Below are positions 87 to 48,441 of a stretch of 64,000 nucleotides of DNA, one piece after another. Source of the stretch: Solidesulfovibrio alcoholivorans DSM 5433 (GTDB lineage: Bacteria > Desulfobacterota > Desulfovibrionia > Desulfovibrionales > Desulfovibrionaceae). The position numbers were made by a program, and so were the translations under genes. The number at the start of each line of letters is the position of its first letter. Position 1 is the stretch's first letter. Below the pieces are notes generated by a model. It searched no databases. It worked only from the letters and a program-made list of their open reading frames with translations, and was not told the DNA's origin. The stretch is taken from NCBI RefSeq assembly GCF_000702665.1, contig NZ_JNJA01000002.1:186001-250000 (forward strand), read 5' to 3'.

Positions 87-1325
87 ATGGAAGAACTGCT
101 TATTTCCGATCCCGAAGTCGGGCGCGCCGTGTGCCTGGAGATCGAACGCCAGACCGGCAAGCTCGAGATGATCGCCTCCGAGAACTTCGTGTCCGTGGCC
201 GTGCGCCAGGCGCAGGGCAGCGTGCTCACGCACAAGTACGCCGAGGGCTATCCCGGCAAGCGCTACTACGGCGGTTGCGAGTACGTGGACCTGGCCGAGA
301 ACCTCGCGCGCGATCGCGTAAAGACGCTGTTCGGCTGCGAGTACGCCAACGTCCAGCCCCATTCCGGCTCCCAGGCCAACATGGCGGTCTATTTCGCGGC
401 CCTCAAACCCGGCGACACGCTGCTCGGCCTCGACCTTTCCCACGGCGGCCACCTGACCCACGGCTCGCCGGTCAACTTTTCGGGCCGCCTCTACAACATC
501 GTGTTCTACCACGTGAAAAAAGAGACCGGCACCATCGACTACGAGGAAGTGGAGCGCCTGGCCAAGGAGCACAAACCCGCGGCCATCGTGGCCGGAGCCA
601 GCGCCTATCCGCGCATCATCGACTTCCCGCGTTTTCGGGCCATCGCCGACGAGGTCGGGGCCAAGCTTATCGTGGACATGGCCCACATCGCCGGCCTCGT
701 CGCGACCGGCCACCACCCCTCGCCGATCCCCCACGCGCACTTTACGACCTCGACCACGCACAAGACCCTGCGCGGCCCGCGCGGCGGCCTGATCCTCTCT
801 TCCGAGGAGTTCGGCAAGTCGCTCAATTCGCAGATTTTCCCGGGCATGCAGGGTGGCCCGCTCATGCACGTCATCGCGGCCAAGGCCGTGGCCTTCGGCG
901 AGGCGCTCAAACCCGCGTTCAAGACCTACCAGGGCCAGGTGATCAAGAACTGCCAGGTGCTGGCCAAGGGCCTGCTCGACGCGGGCTACGACCTGGTTTC
1001 CGGCGGCACGGACAACCACCTCGTGCTGGTGGACCTGACGAAAAAGGACGTGACCGGCAAGGACGCCGAGCACGCCCTGGACGAGGCCGGCATCACGGTC
1101 AACAAGAACACGGTGCCTTTCGAGACGCGTTCGCCGTTCGTCACGTCGGGCGTGCGCATCGGCACGGCGGCGCTGACCACGCGCGGCATGGTCGAGGCGG
1201 ACATCGAAAAGATCGTCGGCTGGATCGACGCGGCCATCAAGTCCACGACCAACGAGACCAGGCTCGGCGAAATCCGCAAGGACGTCGAGCGCTTCGCCAA
1301 GAGCTTCCCGCTGTTCGCCTGGTAG
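87..1325 (+). CDS. glyA: Serine hydroxymethyltransferase
   Basis: PLP enzyme of the cytoplasm that interconverts serine and glycine while loading tetrahydrofolate with a one-carbon unit. At 412 residues it has the usual length. The PLP lysine is Lys226 in the motif [15 protein letters not shown], and the N-terminal block EMIASENF, the tract [13 protein letters not shown] and the glycine loop PGMQGGP are all present. The ATG follows an ACGAGG Shine-Dalgarno sequence by about 7 nt. The gene lies at the window edge, so any upstream operon partner is not visible; the 50 nt before it end in a stop codon but match nothing I recognise. A perfect hairpin lies 40 nt downstream. Confidence 0.98.
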
Positions 1326-1364
1326 AGCGGATCGGGGCGATGCCACCGGTTCGTATGGATACCT

Positions 1365-1400
1365 ATCGGGCCGCGAGACGCCAGCGTCTCGCGGCCCGAT
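1365..1400 (+). terminator. Perfect hairpin after glyA
   Basis: A 16-bp perfect stem (ATCGGGCCGCGAGACG and its complement) around a 4-nt CCAG loop. It is followed by GCGTTT rather than a long T run, so it is a probable terminator or mRNA 3' stabiliser for glyA. The stem is directly visible; the function is inferred from position. Confidence 0.6.
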
Positions 1401-1464
1401 GCGTTTGCGGCCCTGACCGCGTTCCCAAGCGACATGCTGGCCTTGCTGAAAGCCTAAGCGGCTG

Positions 1465-1491
1465 TAATCCGCTCCCTCGTCGTGCCGATAT
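1465..1491 (+). promoter_or_regulatory. Possible sigma-28-like promoter upstream of the diguanylate cyclase
   Basis: TAAT-N15-GCCGATAT, two mismatches from the FliA consensus TAAA-N15-GCCGATAA and with the correct spacing. It lies 230 nt upstream of the diguanylate cyclase start. It is weaker than the two clear sigma-28 promoters in this window (near 5.57 kb and 21.39 kb), so it is tentative. Confidence 0.35.
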
Positions 1492-1518
1492 GCCCCCTGT
1501 TGCAGGAAAGAACAATAT

Positions 1519-1716
1519 GTGCAATGCTACCTGGATATGACTCCGACAGCGAAGCCGGAATCCGAAATCCCGGGCCGTAGTATATGGTTGCGCCCCGAAG
1601 CCGATTCCCCTTTATTCGTCAACATTTCTTTCTCCCCCTTCCCGGTCCGTGGCCTCTTCGCAGTCCGCGACCACGCCTTCTACGATTCCGTGCGGGAAAC
1701 CCTGCACCAGCAATAA
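1519..1716 (+). CDS. Possible small protein, 65 aa, upstream of the diguanylate cyclase
   Basis: A GTG-initiated frame preceded by AGGAAAG at 9 nt that stops 8 nt before the diguanylate cyclase start, so it could be its leader cistron. The sequence is not obviously a shadow: it is not dominated by Arg or Pro and ends in an amphipathic stretch, FYDSVRETLHQQ. Third-position GC is lower than in neighbouring genes and I recognise no family. It may equally be untranslated leader. Confidence 0.25.
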   Translation: MQCYLDMTPTAKPESEIPGRSIWLRPEADSPLFVNISFSPFPVRGLFAVRDHAFYDSVRETLHQQ

Positions 1717-1724
1717 GCGCCGGC

Positions 1725-3206
1725 ATGTCCATCAAGGCCAAACTCCTGGCGCTTCTGATCGCGCCCATCATTGTCCTTTCCGCCATCCATATCCTGGAAT
1801 TGCAGCGTGTGATTTCCGGGTTGGCGGAAACCCTGGCCGCCCACAAGGAACAGGCCATGGCCGCCGTCGCCCACAATATCGAGGGCGCGATCGTCTCGAC
1901 AAACCGCATCACGTTAAACCTCGCACACCCCAAGGAGATCGCGCACGCCGTGCAGGCGGCGGACAACGAGGTGCTCTACGACTGGAGCCATTCCTTCACC
2001 GCCCAGGGCGCGACCGTCCTTTTTGCCGACGCGCGGGGCATGGTGCTCTCCCGGGCCCCGGCCGAATTCCGTTTCGGCGACGATATTTCCCGGTCCGCGT
2101 GGTTCGCGCGGGCGCTGCGCGACGGCGCGTTCGTCGGCCTGGCCGAGATGGACGGCGCGCTGCACCTCGTCAGCGCGCGCTGCGTGCGCAAATACGACGA
2201 CCTGCCCGTGGGCGTCGTCGCCGCGTCCGTGCCGCTCACCCCGCAGTGGCTCTCGCAATTCACCGACGACCGGCAGGTCCTGCGCGTGGTCGCCGCGGGC
2301 CGCAGCATCCAGAACGCGCCGACGCCGCCCGGCAACGCGGACTTTTTTCGCCTCGACGTCGCCGCAGCAGGATTCGCCGACCCGGACGCCTTTTCCGTGG
2401 CATTCCTTCCCGATCCCCAATACCGGCAACTGGTGGCGCTCAAACACGCCACCCTTATGACCGGATGCCTCACGGCCGTTGTCACCATCGTGGCCCTTGC
2501 CTTGCTGCTCGCCAGCCAGTTGCGCCCCTACGCGGCCATCGTTGCGAGCCTGCGGGACTACGCCCGCAACGCGGCCAGCCTCGAAACCGTACGCGAACGC
2601 CTGACGCGCCTGACCCCCGCCCGCCGCAACGAACTGCACGACATCATCGACGCCCTGGTCCGCATGATCGACGCCGTGCGCACCCAGCTCGACCGCGTGC
2701 GCGCCTACGCCGGGCAGCTCGAAACCCTGGCCGCAACCGACGCCCTGACCGGTCTGCACAACCGTATGTCCATAAGTGCCATCCTCCAGGCTGAAAAAAA
2801 GGACTTCGACGCGCATGGCATCCCCCTCACCGTGCTCATGCTGGACATCGATTCCTTCAAGGCCATCAACGACACCCACGGCCACCAGACGGGCGACGCG
2901 GCGCTCATGATCGTGGCCAAGGCCCTTCGCGGCGCGAGCCGCAAACAGGATAGCGTGGGGAGATGGGGCGGGGAGGAATTCCTGCTCGTCGCGCCGGGCA
3001 TCGACGCCGCGGCGGCTCCGGCCCTGGCCGAACGGCTGCGTGCCGCCGTCGCGGCCGAGGACTATCCCGACGGGCTGCGCGTCACGGCGAGCATCGGCGT
3101 GACGCAGTCCCGGCCGGGCGACACCGTCGACACGCTCATCGGCCGGGCCGATGCGGCGCTGTACCAGGCCAAGGCCGACGGGCGAAACACCGTGCGCGAG
3201 AGGTGA
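1725..3206 (+). CDS. Membrane-anchored diguanylate cyclase (GGDEF)
   Basis: Predicted to make cyclic di-GMP from two GTP. The 493-aa protein has an N-terminal membrane segment (about residues 5-24), a periplasmic sensor region of about 215 residues, a second membrane segment (243-264), a short HAMP-like or linker coil, and a C-terminal GGDEF domain. The active-site motif is intact GGEEF at 415-419. An RxxD inhibitory site (RKQD) lies five residues before it, so product inhibition is likely. I chose the start at MSIKAKLL because the longer in-frame extension is Arg/Pro rich and unlike protein. The sensor resembles a dCache-type domain, but its ligand cannot be told from sequence. Confidence 0.93.
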   Translation: MSIKAKLLALLIAPIIVLSAIHILELQRVISGLAETLAAHKEQAMAAVAHNIEGAIVSTNRITLNLAHPKEIAHAVQAADNEVLYDWSHSFTAQGATVLFADARGMVLSRAPAEFRFGDDISRSAWFARALRDGAFVGLAEMDGALHLVSARCVRKYDDLPVGVVAASVPLTPQWLSQFTDDRQVLRVVAAGRSIQNAPTPPGNADFFRLDVAAAGFADPDAFSVAFLPDPQYRQLVALKHATLMTGCLTAVVTIVALALLLASQLRPYAAIVASLRDYARNAASLETVRERLTRLTPARRNELHDIIDALVRMIDAVRTQLDRVRAYAGQLETLAATDALTGLHNRMSISAILQAEKKDFDAHGIPLTVLMLDIDSFKAINDTHGHQTGDAALMIVAKALRGASRKQDSVGRWGGEEFLLVAPGIDAAAAPALAERLRAAVAAEDYPDGLRVTASIGVTQSRPGDTVDTLIGRADAALYQAKADGRNTVRER

Positions 3207-31800: not shown

Positions 31801-31874
31801 CCCGTTGAAAGTTTTTGAAAGGTGGTCCGGGGGGAAATTTTTTTCAAAAAGTTTCCCCCGGCCGCCGGAGGCGA
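31801..31874 (-). repeat. Dispersed intergenic hairpin element, copy 5
   Basis: On the minus strand: CGCCTCCGGCGGCC, a hairpin with GGGGGAAAC/TTTCCCCC arms and an A/T-rich loop, CCGGACCACC, then a second A/T-rich half (TTTCAAAAACTTTCAAC). Read on the plus strand, its conserved arm supplies the GGAGG (31867-31871) used as Shine-Dalgarno sequence by the downstream kinase gene. Confidence 0.75.
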
Positions 31875-45029: not shown

Positions 45030-46076
45030 ATGACCGCGAGAAGCTGGCCCTGGCTGGCGTTGACGGTCGCCACGCTTTTTTTTACGGCCGGCTTGTGGCA
45101 CCTGCACCTGCCGGCGGCGCTTCTCGTCGGGCCGATGCTCGCAGGCATCGGCGTCGCGCTTTCCGGCGGCGGCATCTCCTTGCCGCGTCCTCCCTACATC
45201 CTGGCCCAGGCCGTGGTCGGCTGCTACATCTCCCGGGCCGCCACGCCGGACATCGTGCCGTCCTTCGCCCGGGGCTGGCCGCTTTTCCTGGCCGTGGTCC
45301 TGGCCACCATCGCGGCAAGCGGCGCGCTCGGCTGGCTGCTCTACCGCCACCGCGTCATGCCCGAGACCACGGGCATCTGGGGCACCTCGCCCGGCGGGGC
45401 CACGGCCATGGTCGTCATGGCCGAGGCCAACGGCGCGGACGTGCGCCTGGTCGCCTTCATGCAGTACCTGCGCGTCATCTGCGTGGCCCTGGCCGCGTCG
45501 CTGGTCGCGCATTTCTGGCAGGGCGGCGAACCCGTGTGGGTGGAGGCGGTCTGGTTCCCGGCCCCGGTCTGGGACACGACCCTGCCCACGCTCGGACTCG
45601 TGGCGCTTGGCGCATGGGTGGGGCTGAAGACCCGCATCCCTTCCGGGGCCATGCTCGCGCCGATGTTCGTCGGCGGCGCGCTGCACCTGTCCGGCCTCGC
45701 CGTCGCCGACGTGCCGGCCTGGCTGCTCGCCGCGACCTACGCCGCCATCGGCTGGCGCATCGGCCTGGGGTTCACCCGGCGCGTGGCCTTCCACGCCGCG
45801 CGTTCCCTGCCGGCCATCCTCGCCAGCATTCTGGCGCTCATGGCCTTTTGCGGCCTGCTCGCTTGGATCGTGGTCCGTTTCGCCGGCGTTGGCGCGCTCA
45901 CCGCCTATCTCGCTACCTGCCCGGGCGGCATGGACACCGTGGCCATCATCGCCGCCACGAGCCCCGTGGACCTCTCCTTCGTCATGACCTTGCAGACGGT
46001 GCGCTTTTTTCTCGTGACCCTGCTCGCCCCGCCCATGGCGCGGTTCCTGGCGGCCAAGGCCGCCCGGCGCGCCTAA
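45030..46076 (+). CDS. AbrB-family membrane transporter
   Basis: A 348-residue polytopic membrane protein of the AbrB (ammonia-monooxygenase-like putative transporter) family, with about ten helices and an internal duplication. The repeat signatures are LPAALLVGPMLAGIGVAL near the start and IPSGAMLAPMFVGGALHL in the second half; ETTGIWGTSPGGATAMVVMAE and YLATCPGGMDTVAIIA form the paired broken helices. Substrate unknown. GGAGAACGTGG precedes the ATG. It is followed by a huge homopolymer hairpin. Confidence 0.88.
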   Translation: MTARSWPWLALTVATLFFTAGLWHLHLPAALLVGPMLAGIGVALSGGGISLPRPPYILAQAVVGCYISRAATPDIVPSFARGWPLFLAVVLATIAASGALGWLLYRHRVMPETTGIWGTSPGGATAMVVMAEANGADVRLVAFMQYLRVICVALAASLVAHFWQGGEPVWVEAVWFPAPVWDTTLPTLGLVALGAWVGLKTRIPSGAMLAPMFVGGALHLSGLAVADVPAWLLAATYAAIGWRIGLGFTRRVAFHAARSLPAILASILALMAFCGLLAWIVVRFAGVGALTAYLATCPGGMDTVAIIAATSPVDLSFVMTLQTVRFFLVTLLAPPMARFLAAKAARRA

Positions 46077-46099: not shown

Positions 46100-46157
<58 letters not shown>

Positions 46158-46207
46158 AGGACCCCCCCCCGGCCGCCGGAAGCCTCTTCCTCGGAGGCAT
46201 CTTCCCC
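46158..46207 (-). repeat. Dispersed intergenic hairpin element, copy 7
   Basis: Minus strand: GGGGAAGATGCCTCCGAGG, an AGAGGCTTCCGGCGGCC repeat of the core, then G9-TCC running into the homopolymer tract. The usual variable hairpin is replaced here by poly-G/poly-C. Confidence 0.7.
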
Positions 46208-46236
46208 TTGACAACCACCCTGGCCCCCGGTAATTT
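46208..46236 (+). promoter_or_regulatory. Sigma-70 promoter of the ilvBN operon
   Basis: TTGACA, 17 nt, TAATTT: consensus -35, ideal spacing and a good -10. The start is expected near 46243, about 25 nt before the leader peptide. Confidence 0.85.
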
Positions 46237-46268
46237 TCACGTCAGAGAACTTCGGAGGAATCCTTGCC

Positions 46269-46355
46269 ATGCCTGCTTCCATGACCAGCGCCATGCTATC
46301 CCTGTCCTTCGCGAAGAGCGCGGTCGTAGTAGGCGTCGCCATAGCGGCGCCTTAG
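46269..46355 (+). CDS. ilvB operon leader peptide (IvbL-like)
   Basis: A 28-codon gene: MPASMTSAMLSLSFAKSA followed by VVVGVAIAAP. GGAGGAA lies 8 nt before the ATG. It closely parallels enterobacterial IvbL in length, in the SML-type start and in a terminal Val-rich run after SA. The control stretch (codons 19-25) reads Val-Val-Val-Gly-Val-Ala-Ile and uses GTA twice and ATA once, codons rare in this GC-rich genome. Stalling for charged Val-tRNA would control the terminator 28 nt downstream. The recognition is by pattern; no experiment is implied. Confidence 0.8.
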   Translation: MPASMTSAMLSLSFAKSAVVVGVAIAAP

Positions 46356-46382
46356 CGGGGATTCTTTAGTTTAGAATTTTTC

Positions 46383-46416
46383 AAAGCCCCCGCCGGCGCG
46401 CCGGCGGGGGCTTTTT
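46383..46416 (+). terminator. Attenuator terminator before ilvB
   Basis: AGCCCCCGCCGGCG and its exact complement, back to back, followed by TTTTT, 45 nt before ilvB. GCGGGG (46355-46360), at the leader stop codon, is complementary to CCCCGC (46388-46393) in the 5' arm. This offers a competing antiterminator pairing that ribosome position could control. Confidence 0.85.
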
Positions 46417-46460
46417 GCGTTCTCCGCCGCGCGTCCGGGGCACACTGACGGAGGTCAGCC

Positions 46461-48143
46461 ATGATTGAGACGACCGGAGCGCGCATCATCGCGCAGAGCA
46501 TCGTGCGCCATGGCATCGATGTGGTGACGGGCATCCCGGGCGGGGCCAACCTGCCGCTTTTCGACGCCATTGCCGAAACCCCCGTCCGCATCGTGCTGGC
46601 CCGCCACGAGCAGGGGGCGGGGTTCATCAGCCAGGGCATGGCCCGGGTGACGGGCAGGCCGCAGGTCTGTCTGGCCACGTCGGGCCCCGGCGCGATGAAC
46701 CTGCTGACGGCCATCGCCGACGCCAAGGCCGATTCCGTGCCGTTGGTGTGCATCACGGGCCAGGTGCCGCGCGGGCTGATCGGCACGGACGCCTTCCAGG
46801 AAGTGGATGTGTACGGCCTGACGATCCCCATCGCCAAACACAACATGCTGGCGCGCCGGGCGTCGGATCTGCCGCGCATGATGACCGAGGCGTTTCGCAT
46901 CGCGGCGTCGGGGCGGCCGGGACCGGTGGTCATCGACGTGCCGCGTGACGTGCAGACCGAGGCGGTGACGCTCGAGGCCTGGCCTGAGCCGGCGCGGACC
47001 GAGGCGTCGTCCATGCCGCATCCGGCGGAACTGGCCAAGGCGGCGGCGCTGCTGGCGGGCAGCGAGCGGCCGGTGCTTTTGTGCGGCGGCGGCGCGGCGC
47101 GCGGCGGCGCGGGTGCGGCTGTGCTCGCGCTTGCCGAGGCGCTCGACGCGCCCGTGGTGACGACGCTGATGGGCCTTGGGCTTTTGCCCCACGACCATCC
47201 GCGAAACGCCGGCATGGTGGGCATGCACGGCCGGCCGGCGGTCAACCATGCGCTTGACGGCTGCGATCTGCTCGTGGCCATCGGCGCGCGTTTCGACGAC
47301 CGGGCCACGGGCGACGCCAAGCGTTTCTGCCCCGGCGCGGCGGTGGTGCACATCGACATCGACCCGGCCGAACACCACAAGAACCGCCGCGCCCACGTGG
47401 CCCTGGCCGGCGATGCGGCGCGGGTGCTGGACGCCTTGCTGCCGCTGGTGCCGGCGCGGCGGCGGCCCGACTGGGACGGCCATCGCGCGGCCCTGCGGCG
47501 CGAGCACGCCTTTCTGCCGCCGGGGCTTGGCGATCCGAAAAGCCCGTACGGCATGCTGGTGGCGGCGGCGGAACTGCTTGGCCCCGACGCCCTCGTGACC
47601 ACGGACGTGGGCCAGAACCAGATGCGCGCGGCCCAGGTCTGGCCCTGCCGCAGGCCCGGGAGGTTCCTCACCTCCGGGGGGCTTGGCACCATGGGCTTCG
47701 GGTTGCCTGCGGCCATCGGCGCGGCGCTCGCCGCGCCGGGCACGCCGGTCGCCTGCGTCACGGGCGACGGCGGACTGCTCATGAACATCCAGGAAATGGC
47801 GACGCTTGCCGAGCTCGGGCTGCCGGTCAAGATCCTGCTCATGGACAACGGCGTGCTCGGGCTCGTGCGGCAGCAGCAGGCGTTTTTCGTGGGGGGCCGC
47901 TACACCGCCTCGACGTTCGGGGCCCGGCCCGATTTTCCGGCCCTGGCCGCGGCGTTCGGCATGGCCTGCGTGGACCTCGATCATTGCCGCGATGCCCGGG
48001 GCGCGCTGGCCGCCGCCTTGCGCGCGCCCGGCCCGGCCCTGGTGCGCCTGGCCGTGGACCCCGACGCCCACGTCTATCCCATGGTGCCGCCCGGCGCCGC
48101 CAACAACGAAATGATCCTGGAGGGAAGCCATGCAAAAGCGTAG
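46461..48143 (+). CDS. ilvB: Acetolactate synthase large subunit
   Basis: A 560-residue thiamine-diphosphate enzyme that condenses pyruvate to acetolactate (or acetohydroxybutyrate) for Val, Leu and Ile. The catalytic Glu50 is in ARHEQGAGF, and the ThDP motif is GDGGLLMNIQEMATLAELGLP ending near LLMDN. FAD-domain sequences are present (GMVGMHG, HIDID). GGAGG lies before the ATG. It overlaps ilvN by 14 nt and is controlled by the leader and attenuator upstream. Confidence 0.97.
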   Translation: MIETTGARIIAQSIVRHGIDVVTGIPGGANLPLFDAIAETPVRIVLARHEQGAGFISQGMARVTGRPQVCLATSGPGAMNLLTAIADAKADSVPLVCITGQVPRGLIGTDAFQEVDVYGLTIPIAKHNMLARRASDLPRMMTEAFRIAASGRPGPVVIDVPRDVQTEAVTLEAWPEPARTEASSMPHPAELAKAAALLAGSERPVLLCGGGAARGGAGAAVLALAEALDAPVVTTLMGLGLLPHDHPRNAGMVGMHGRPAVNHALDGCDLLVAIGARFDDRATGDAKRFCPGAAVVHIDIDPAEHHKNRRAHVALAGDAARVLDALLPLVPARRRPDWDGHRAALRREHAFLPPGLGDPKSPYGMLVAAAELLGPDALVTTDVGQNQMRAAQVWPCRRPGRFLTSGGLGTMGFGLPAAIGAALAAPGTPVACVTGDGGLLMNIQEMATLAELGLPVKILLMDNGVLGLVRQQQAFFVGGRYTASTFGARPDFPALAAAFGMACVDLDHCRDARGALAAALRAPGPALVRLAVDPDAHVYPMVPPGAANNEMILEGSHAKA

Positions 48144-48441
48144 CGCGCAACCGAGCGGAGCCGCGGCCGGGGCCGTGTTGGAACTTTTCGCCACGGACGC
48201 CATGGATGCCGTGCGCCATGTGGCCGCCTGCCTGGCCAGGCGTTCCCATGCGCTGCTCGGACTGTTGTGCCTGCCGGGCACGGACGGGGAAGGGCGGCTG
48301 CTCGTCGCCCTTCCCGACGACGGACGCATCCCGCGGCTGCTGGTCGAACTGGGGGCCCTGCCCGGAGTGCGCGAGGCGCGGCGCGGCGCGGGGGATTGCC
48401 TCGGCTGCTTCGGCCTTGCCGCGACGGGGCTTGCCGCCTGA
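48130..48441 (+). CDS. ilvN: Acetolactate synthase small (regulatory) subunit, IlvN type
   Basis: A 103-residue ACT-domain protein, the short enterobacterial-style IlvN rather than the 160-residue IlvH. The line AVLELFATDAMDAVRHVAACL and the LLCLP strand match E. coli IlvN. It confers valine feedback on IlvB. The start overlaps ilvB, consistent with equal synthesis. The usual glycine-rich ACT turn is degraded (ATDAMDA), so valine sensitivity may be altered. Confidence 0.88.
   Translation: MQKRSAQPSGAAAGAVLELFATDAMDAVRHVAACLARRSHALLGLLCLPGTDGEGRLLVALPDDGRIPRLLVELGALPGVREARRGAGDCLGCFGLAATGLAA

Follow-up and report, generated by a model that had tools for sequence, protein, structure and literature searches.

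Organization of the region upstream of ilvB

The window, that is, the whole stretch of 64,000 nucleotides of Solidesulfovibrio alcoholivorans DSM 5433 that we analysed, holds an ilvB gene followed by an overlapping ilvN-like gene. An upstream ORF ends at 46076 and ilvB starts at 46461, and a promoter candidate, a leader ORF and a terminator lie in between. The features are as follows.

46208-46236 (+): candidate sigma-70 promoter, read directly; -35 TTGACA at 46208-46213, 17 nt, -10 TAATTT at 46231-46236
46254-46258 (+): Shine-Dalgarno sequence GGAGG of the leader ORF, read directly
46269-46355 (+): leader peptide MPASMTSAMLSLSFAKSAVVVGVAIAAP, 28 codons and the stop TAG; ORF read directly
46323-46343 (+): putative control codons GTC GTA GTA GGC GTC GCC ATA (Val19-21, Val23, Ile25)
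46331-46352 (+): predicted protector hairpin; segment 1 (46331-46339, AGGCGUCGC) with segment 2 (46344-46352, GCGGCGCCU), from the RNA fold of the transcript to 46362, window only
46339-46418 (+): match to covariance model R1, 67.9 bits, E 5.7e-13 genome-wide, the window being one of the 39 training rows
46347-46360 (+): antiterminator segment 2, across the leader stop; GCGCC at 46347-46351, UUA, GCGGGG at 46355-46360, from duplex and fold models and compensatory changes
46383-46416 (+): intrinsic terminator; segment 3 (CCCCGC at 46388-46393 and GGCGC at 46395-46399), loop, segment 4 to 46414, T tract (T5) at 46412-46416
46461-48143 (+): ilvB, AHAS I-type large subunit of 560 aa, the proposed regulated gene; TIGR00118 614 bits, cut-off 538
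48130-48441 (+): ilvN-like small subunit of 103 aa, overlapping the end of ilvB; weak matches

Comparison and computation together recovered all the parts of an ivbL-type attenuator: a short ORF with a valine run and its own start signal, a Rho-independent terminator, and a mutually exclusive antiterminator that spans the leader stop. A first, sequence-only reading of this DNA had listed a TTGACA-N17-TAATTT promoter, a 28-codon leader with its own Shine-Dalgarno sequence and a T5 terminator before ilvB, and all three are present as letters, the -10 hexamer being weak (3/6 matches to TATAAT). It had also proposed a competing pairing of GCGGGG (46355-46360) with CCCCGC (46388-46393); we recovered this pairing and added its second half, GCGCC at 46347-46351 with GGCGC at 46395-46399, as well as the segment 1:2 hairpin, neither of which was among the parts it named. 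The leader RNA had a fold z score of -4.6 relative to shuffles. A simple consensus scan of the window reported neither promoter nor terminator; the promoter was missed because of its poor -10 hexamer and the terminator, in our reading, because the palindromic stem extends into the T tract.

Just 5' of the promoter, in the region 46100-46157, a C run reaching 46136 is followed by a G run at 46137-46157. These runs are absent from the other 11 loci of the same genus (330 nt upstream of ilvB) and probably reflect faulty sequencing or assembly of GC-rich intergenic DNA. A repeat-like sequence, CCCGGCCGCCGGAGGC, occurs at 46168-46183, at 31857-31872 and at four weaker sites (6 copies at two or fewer mismatches against 1.0 expected), and near-identical letters stand upstream of ilvB at another locus (L009).

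Predicted folding of the leader transcript

The transcript was folded in each state that a ribosome would impose on it, with ribosome footprint sizes taken from general knowledge. When the transcript ended just beyond the leader stop, segment 1 (AGGCGUCGC) was predicted to pair with segment 2 (GCGGCGCCU), and the terminator was present in the fold of the full leader free of ribosomes. With a ribosome at Val20 and segment 4 absent, the pairing of segments 2 and 3 (GCGCC..GCGGGG with CCCCGC.GGCGC) was computed at -14.3, -23.5 and -26.6 kcal/mol for successive stages in the emergence of the 5' arm and the loop, while a ribosome at Val21 gave an antiterminator of -24.5 kcal/mol. A ribosome at the UAG stop masked segment 2 and left a terminator of -30.9 kcal/mol. 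Once the terminator sequence was complete, the terminator was the most stable fold (-37.4) even with a stalled ribosome; the switch must therefore be kinetic, and antitermination would depend on timing. The codons of Val20 and Val21 end 18 and 15 nt 5' of segment 2, respectively, so that segment 2 should stay accessible when a ribosome stalls at either codon.

These folds are consistent with the following sequence of events. When charged tRNA-Val is ample, the ribosome would reach the UAG stop and mask segment 2, the 3:4 terminator would form and RNA polymerase would halt before ilvB. When charged tRNA-Val is scarce, above all the one that reads GUA, the ribosome would stall at codons 19-21 and leave segment 2 free, which could then pair with segment 3 ahead of the synthesis of segment 4 and allow read-through into ilvB. 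If the leader is not translated, the 1:2 pairing would permit formation of the terminator.

Conservation of the element within the Desulfovibrionaceae

A search for IlvB in 288 Desulfovibrionaceae genomes gave a match at E<=1e-160 in 132 of them, from 22 of 44 genera, and all 132 upstream regions were inspected. A leader was defined as an ORF of 12-50 codons with at least four Val or Ile per eight residues near its end, or at least five in a stricter version of the rule. By these definitions a leader was found at 132/132 and 115/132 of the ilvBN loci, respectively; at one locus (L190) the script chose the wrong frame and the Val leader is visible in another. The terminator script was positive at 120/132 loci, and leader (at least four) and terminator occurred together at 120/132; an earlier and stricter version of this script gave 115/132, and the laxer one is behind all counts given here. 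At the 12 loci without a scripted terminator, inspection by eye shows a GC-rich hairpin that is bulged or whose T tract is interrupted.

The leader rule by itself is loose, since with the threshold at four it was passed by 81 of 660 dinucleotide shuffles and by 16 of 132 reverse complements, as well as by 2 of 132 slices taken within ilvB and by 1 of 14 ilvBH-type paralogues. In these four control sets, the threshold of five was passed by 7, 4, 0 and 0 sequences, a terminator was called in 16, 9, 3 and 0, and leader and terminator occurred together in 0, 1, 0 and 0, respectively.

At 81/132 family loci, the leader start that was chosen has a Shine-Dalgarno-like 4-mer no more than 16 nt away, and the Val and Ile codons peak 9-11 codons 5' of the stop (131 family leaders). 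Eleven of 13 further genomes of the window's genus have an ilvBN-type ilvB. The leader was found at 12/12 Solidesulfovibrio ilvBN loci, with GTCGTAGTAGGCGT identical in all 12 and a variable N-terminal half, and TTGAC[AG] lies 57-66 nt 5' of the leader ATG in 12/12.

The genome of the window has a second ilvB, of the ilvBH-type AHAS (G000, C4:345547-347241, L002), with no Val leader in the 420 nt examined, and only one of the two AHAS enzymes therefore seems to be under attenuator control.

Compensatory changes in the competing helices

The antiterminator was analysed on 117 of the 132 family rows, after removal of L190 and of near-identical rows (>=95%), and on 39 elements from many groups (alignment A1). 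Because related sequences are not independent, the shuffle counts given here are no probabilities. On the 117 family rows, 81.1% of the antiterminator cells held a standard pair, where 500 shuffles averaged 78.3 and did not exceed 79.5, and 48 cells carried a double change, compared with a shuffle mean of 26 and a maximum of 36 of 500; when the partners were slid against each other, pairing fell from 81% to 36-47%. The terminator pairs were standard in 97.3% of cells against 92.8% in shuffles, with 41 double-change cells against 6.6. Striking variants occur at L112, where GCAGGG stands with CCCUGC, and at L193, where GAGCCGGAGGG stands with CCCCCGCCGGCUC.

Across the 39 cross-phylum rows, the helix GCGCC:GGCGC was paired in 99% and changed on both sides in 3/5 pairs, while the helix GCGGGG:CCCCGC was paired in 78%, its outermost pair in 18/39. 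Paired cells of the antiterminator were barely above those of shuffles in this set (88.0 against 87.3; 43/500), and the double-changed pairs exceeded them (1/500). For the terminator it was the paired cells that exceeded shuffles (1/500) and not the double-changed pairs (206/500).

Duplexes between a locus's own segments 2 and 3 averaged -20.8 against -18.5 (sd 0.17) for swapped segments and were stronger than in all 20 swaps (n=203; L011, L012, L030 and L190, at which the hairpin or the leader was mis-picked, were omitted). Taken one sequence at a time, the 2:3 pairing was equalled by at most 5 of 100 shuffles at only 66/129 family loci and 31/74 other loci, and by 9/100 at the window, shuffles often doing as well because the region is GC-rich.

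Putative control codons and valine tRNAs

The sequence-only reading had called the GTA codons of the control run rare, and they make up 0/112 Val codons in four genes of the window. In 12 Solidesulfovibrio, GTA accounts for 37.5% of the Val codons of the leaders (last 22 codons) and for 0.4% of those of ilvB. Over the 132 family loci, these shares were 41% and 6.5%, with the leader higher at 103/132, while over 37 Enterobacterales loci (L108, described below, included) they were 1.9% and 13.3%.

Among 48 tRNA matches in the draft genome, the Val tRNA genes carry the anticodons CAC (two), GAC (one) and UAC (one); no tRNA-Ile(GAU) gene was seen in this draft assembly, so that Val tRNA genes could be missing from it too. 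By the standard wobble rules, GUA is read only by the UAC tRNA among these Val tRNAs. That GUA acts as the sensitive codon is predicted, since the favoured codon of a leader need not be the rarest one: in the excerpted text of PMC1183508, the theory of selective charging and the data alike have leaders favour the codon whose tRNA discharges first. The Val codon bias may also be in part a constraint of RNA structure.

Occurrence outside the family

Named loci outside our family search were taken as the best 80 of at least 583 by likeness of their IlvB to that of the window, several being metagenome bins, and the taxonomic spread that they show is no census. By the rule, 75 of these best 80 of at least 583 loci had a leader and 57 a leader and a terminator. 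They belong mostly to Rhodocyclales and Enterobacterales and also to Thermodesulfobacteriota and Verrucomicrobiota, with single bins labelled Hydrogenedentes, Spirochaetota, Elusimicrobiota, Latescibacterota and Binatota. Three of the named loci (L030, L088 and L103) are on contigs equal in length to those of the family loci L012, L175 and L129, respectively, and are apparently duplicates of them. Among the five failures of the rule in this set, inspection by eye showed a Val/Arg leader with a terminator at L034 and L039, L037 and L041 have a Leu/Val leader, and L048 has none. The last is the sole leaderless locus in the best 80 of at least 583, and another ORF ends directly before its ilvB. 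One locus labelled Chryseobacterium sp. 18061 (L108) carries an ivbL-ilvB of enterobacterial type; the bin or strain is probably contaminated with enterobacterial DNA.

Since the named loci had been picked by likeness to the window, two even draws were added. An ilvBN-type ilvB was present in 12/247 genomes of the phylum, six of them outside the Desulfovibrionaceae and in six different families, and in 8/276 genomes from the class to which an Enterobacter genome belongs, seven besides that genome. Leader and terminator were found by the rule at 13/13 of the even-draw loci outside the family. In Enterobacter and Yersinia, used as controls, ilvB and ilvG were leader-positive and ilvI was negative in both; the ilvG operon is a known attenuated operon, and we know of no attenuation of ilvI. 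At Yersinia ilvB the leader was found and the bulged terminator was missed by the script.

Homology of the element with ivbL

The 39 elements of alignment A1, from which model R1 was built, share letters over the leader stop (GCGCCGUAGCGGG) and beyond it (AACCCCCGCCGGCGC..GCCGGCGGGGGUUUUU); L109 was left out of A1, and L141 and L158, whose stops were mis-assigned, were left out of the model alignments. In the genome of the window, the next full-length R1 match elsewhere scored 23.9 bits, and the 30.6 bits of a partial match on the antisense strand come from the same palindrome as the match in the window. In 118 genomes of the phylum, searched with stricter filters, R1 gave 8 matches above 40 bits, 7 before ilvB and 1 before ilvD (L241). 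At that locus (genome G324, 1300-3091), an attenuator of 54.5 bits with the Leu/Val leader MNRDVHSPNTMLPIRLALLGVGVGVRVLDAAVP lies 5' of an ilvD-like gene, which is ilvD by Pfam and NCBIfam and is truncated by the end of the locus. In six genomes of other phyla, R1 had a match at E<=0.001 in five, and the Latescibacterota bin had no match at that threshold. The model was weak at L268 (21.5 bits) and at L261 (24.6 bits); the latter locus (genome G399) has two strong terminator-like hairpins, one before and one after the leader. Matches of 30-33 bits at L245, L246, L248 and L249 have no adjoining ilvB match and were treated as chance terminators.

To exclude circularity, the training of a second model, R2, was restricted to 24 Desulfovibrionaceae rows. 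It was run on nine genomes picked for their previously known ilvB leaders (two Enterobacterales, three Rhodocyclaceae/Rhodocyclales/Thauera, and bins of Verrucomicrobiota, Spirochaetota, Elusimicrobiota and Binatota). The best genome-wide match of R2 was the ilvB leader in 9/9 of these chosen genomes, at 28.7 to 52.9 bits; in G804 a second match was close (27.2 against 28.7 bits), and in G807 further matches reached 33.6 bits. On E. coli K-12 ivbL (NC_000913), R1 scored 63.9 bits and R2 42 bits. On the window, as on 14 of the related loci, every Rfam family stayed below its gathering score, and the relaxed matches P15, His_leader and Leu_leader were put down to likely chance or generic attenuator likeness. 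A riboswitch reading was set aside because the conserved core consists of the stop codon and the terminator.

Attenuators with Val-rich leaders might evolve easily and have arisen before ilvB repeatedly, in which case the likeness to ivbL would be convergence. The N-termini of the leaders are indeed highly variable, the ilvG leader, another Val/Ile attenuator, reaches just 13.3 bits with R2, and leader-peptide control of ilvB with another RNA layout has been proposed for Actinobacteria in the excerpted texts of PMC1262725 and PMC10272879. We nevertheless consider such repeated origin unlikely, because letters beyond the Val codons are common across phyla, GCGCCGUAGCGGG at the stop and CCCCGCCGGCGC in the terminator, and because a model trained on sulfate reducers only ranked the ilvB leader first in each of the nine chosen foreign genomes. 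Judged by these shared letters, the relation between the element of sulfate reducers and E. coli ivbL is homology, not mere likeness.

The hairpin could also be a fixed terminator, or part of a processed leader, marking the end of an upstream small RNA or of read-through from a gene, with the ORF incidental. Its great strength on its own (-30.9 kcal/mol) and the silence of the simple scan about a promoter are in keeping with this, but it would leave unexplained a Val/Ile ORF at every family locus (132/132 against 81/660 shuffles by the loose rule, 115/132 against 7/660 by the strict one), the covariation of segment 2 with segment 3 and the tie of strong model matches to ilvB or ilvD; we hold it to be very improbable. 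An equally small chance falls to translational coupling or re-initiation, by which translation of the leader would expose or hide the ilvB start and transcription would not terminate. Only 105 nt separate the leader stop from the ilvB start, and re-initiation at leaders has been proposed elsewhere; yet a strong terminator with a T tract, conserved in the family, stands between the two, and the excerpted part of the same paper gives a spacing of about 10-13 nt for re-initiation and of 40 or more for attenuation (PMC4833913).

The AHAS I genes and the history of IlvB

For the window's large subunit, PRK08155, which we take to be IlvB, was the best-scoring model and remained under its equivalog cut-off (766 against 870 bits). 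The small subunit, whose length of 103 aa fits a short subunit with a single ACT domain, was best matched by PRK08178, which we take to be IlvN, although weakly (E 7e-6, 25.9 bits, under the cut-off of 128), and matched Pfam ACT_AHAS_ss weakly (15.8 bits against a cut-off of 27). By a crude rule that takes the longest ORF starting near the ilvB stop, and that picked an out-of-frame ORF at the window, the median small-subunit length was 98 aa at 119/132 family loci and 160 aa at 14/14 paralogue loci. The window's IlvB is 52.6% identical to that of E. coli K-12 over 551 columns, and its closest relative in the best 80 of at least 583 named loci, at 80% identity, is that of S. aerotolerans DSM 16695 (L030).

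In a tree of 78 IlvB rows (LG+C20), Solidesulfovibrio IlvB groups with that of L112, from another Desulfovibrionaceae genus (100/96). The Enterobacterales set of seven, which consists of six Enterobacterales and Natronospirillum (L091, of another order), is sister to a Rhodocyclales sequence (100/98) within a beta/gamma clade (100/99). When IlvG and IlvI were added as outgroups, the window's large subunit fell in a 75-row IlvB clade (100/99), with the IlvG, IlvI and ilvBH-type rows outside. In that tree, Desulfobacterota and one Spirochaetota bin branch off first, and the 65-row clade without them has 100/99; the root and direction of the tree are set by the IlvG, IlvI and ilvBH outgroups, and the deep forks are partly weak (60/7, 72/81, 74/86). 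L190, L208 and L228 shift position between the trees with and without added outgroups. The AU test rejected Desulfovibrionaceae IlvB as one clade (p=1.5e-12), and the gene is sporadic outside the family, so that operon and attenuator likely moved together between sulfate reducers and other phyla. No record of a plasmid collection had a single place covering 80% of the query, and there is accordingly no sign in that collection of recent plasmid carriage.

The sequence-only reading had offered two explanations, a wider conservation of this attenuation than assumed or acquisition of the whole operon. The first stands, for the element lies before ilvBN across the Desulfovibrionaceae and in several other phyla; the second, if the donor is sought among enterobacteria, does not. 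Recent lateral acquisition from Enterobacterales would account for the architecture shared with ivbL, and transfer has been proposed for the AHAS I of Desulfovibrio in the excerpted text of PMC5727371, but we give it next to no credence, since one clade of Solidesulfovibrio with the seven was rejected (AU p=1.6e-7), each side has its own neighbours in the tree, and the two groups make opposite choices of GTA. Our tree nests enterobacterial IlvB as a late branch, at odds with the origin of AHAS I in gamma-proteobacteria that has been published. The excerpted text of that paper reports AHAS I only in gamma-proteobacteria, Desulfovibrio and one firmicute and proposes a gamma origin followed by transfer (PMC5727371); neither our IlvB tree nor the presence of copies in Rhodocyclales, Verrucomicrobiota and other groups agrees with this proposal.

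Discussion

The region upstream of ilvB is very probably a ribosome-mediated transcription attenuator of ilvBN that senses valyl-tRNA, and probably isoleucyl-tRNA too, and that is homologous to E. coli ivbL. The IvbL-like Val/Ile attenuation of the first reading gains support from conservation, compensatory changes, codon bias and an RNA model that holds across phyla. From the parts, their conservation, the compensatory changes and the homology, all directly supported, we infer translation of the leader, stalling, read-through and a response to valine. The element is of an ordinary kind and strongly evidenced, and it is wider and probably older than the first reading had supposed.

Leader-peptide attenuators are usually regarded as fast-evolving and lineage-bound. 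In the present case, the non-coding letters allow the element to be traced in sulfate reducers, in Rhodocyclales and Enterobacterales and in several further phyla, and because the strong model matches that were followed up always lay before ilvB (once before ilvD), how it evolved, moved and chose its codons can be tested directly. On balance we favour a history in which the ilvBN attenuator is one old element, inherited and transferred in one piece with the AHAS I genes across many phyla. In this history ivbL would be a late, derived copy that entered the Enterobacterales by way of a Rhodocyclales-like lineage. The RNA switch would have been kept and the sensing codon exchanged, sulfate reducers using GUA, for which they have a dedicated minor tRNA-Val, and enterobacteria GUC/GUG. 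The data suggest an old switch that travels with its genes and no import from gut bacteria. They also put the history of AHAS I in question, as AHAS I would not be an enterobacterial invention lent to Desulfovibrio.

For sulfate reducers, the element offers a testable valine control point, the second AHAS (ilvBH) having no leader-plus-terminator at the 14 loci examined. A second, AHAS I-like enzyme of Desulfovibrio has already been published, according to the excerpted text of PMC5727371. We found no description of an ilvB attenuator of sulfate reducers in the literature searched; Lopatovskaya 2010 or Vitreschak 2004 may list some.

Comparison with known systems

The ilvBNC leader of Corynebacterium (ilvB-II motif) and the ilvB-OMG motif share with our element the proposal of leader-peptide attenuation at ilvB, but the published description, as excerpted, sets them apart by another RNA layout (PMC10272879). 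The ilvL-ilvGMEDA operon of Enterobacterales (L264, L265) also has a Val/Ile-rich leader and a terminator before a large AHAS subunit; however, the letters of its leader and terminator differ, R2 gave just 13.3 bits for L264 and 12.1 for L265, and its target IlvG forms a separate clade.

The closest counterpart is ivbL-ilvBN of E. coli K-12 (b3672, annotated 'ilvBN operon leader peptide'), a reporter of which responds to valine and leucine in E. coli, according to the excerpted text of PMC11187965. It shares with the window the Val run, the AP-stop end of the leader, GCGCC over the stop, the CCCCGCCGGCGC arm of the terminator, the T tract and the order ilvB then ilvN. The leader of the window is shorter than that of E. 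coli (28 codons against 32), contains one Ile and fewer Val, and has GUA GUA where E. coli has GUC/GUG. The terminator of the window is a perfect palindrome, and its post-stop GCGGGG is longer than the GGG of K-12.
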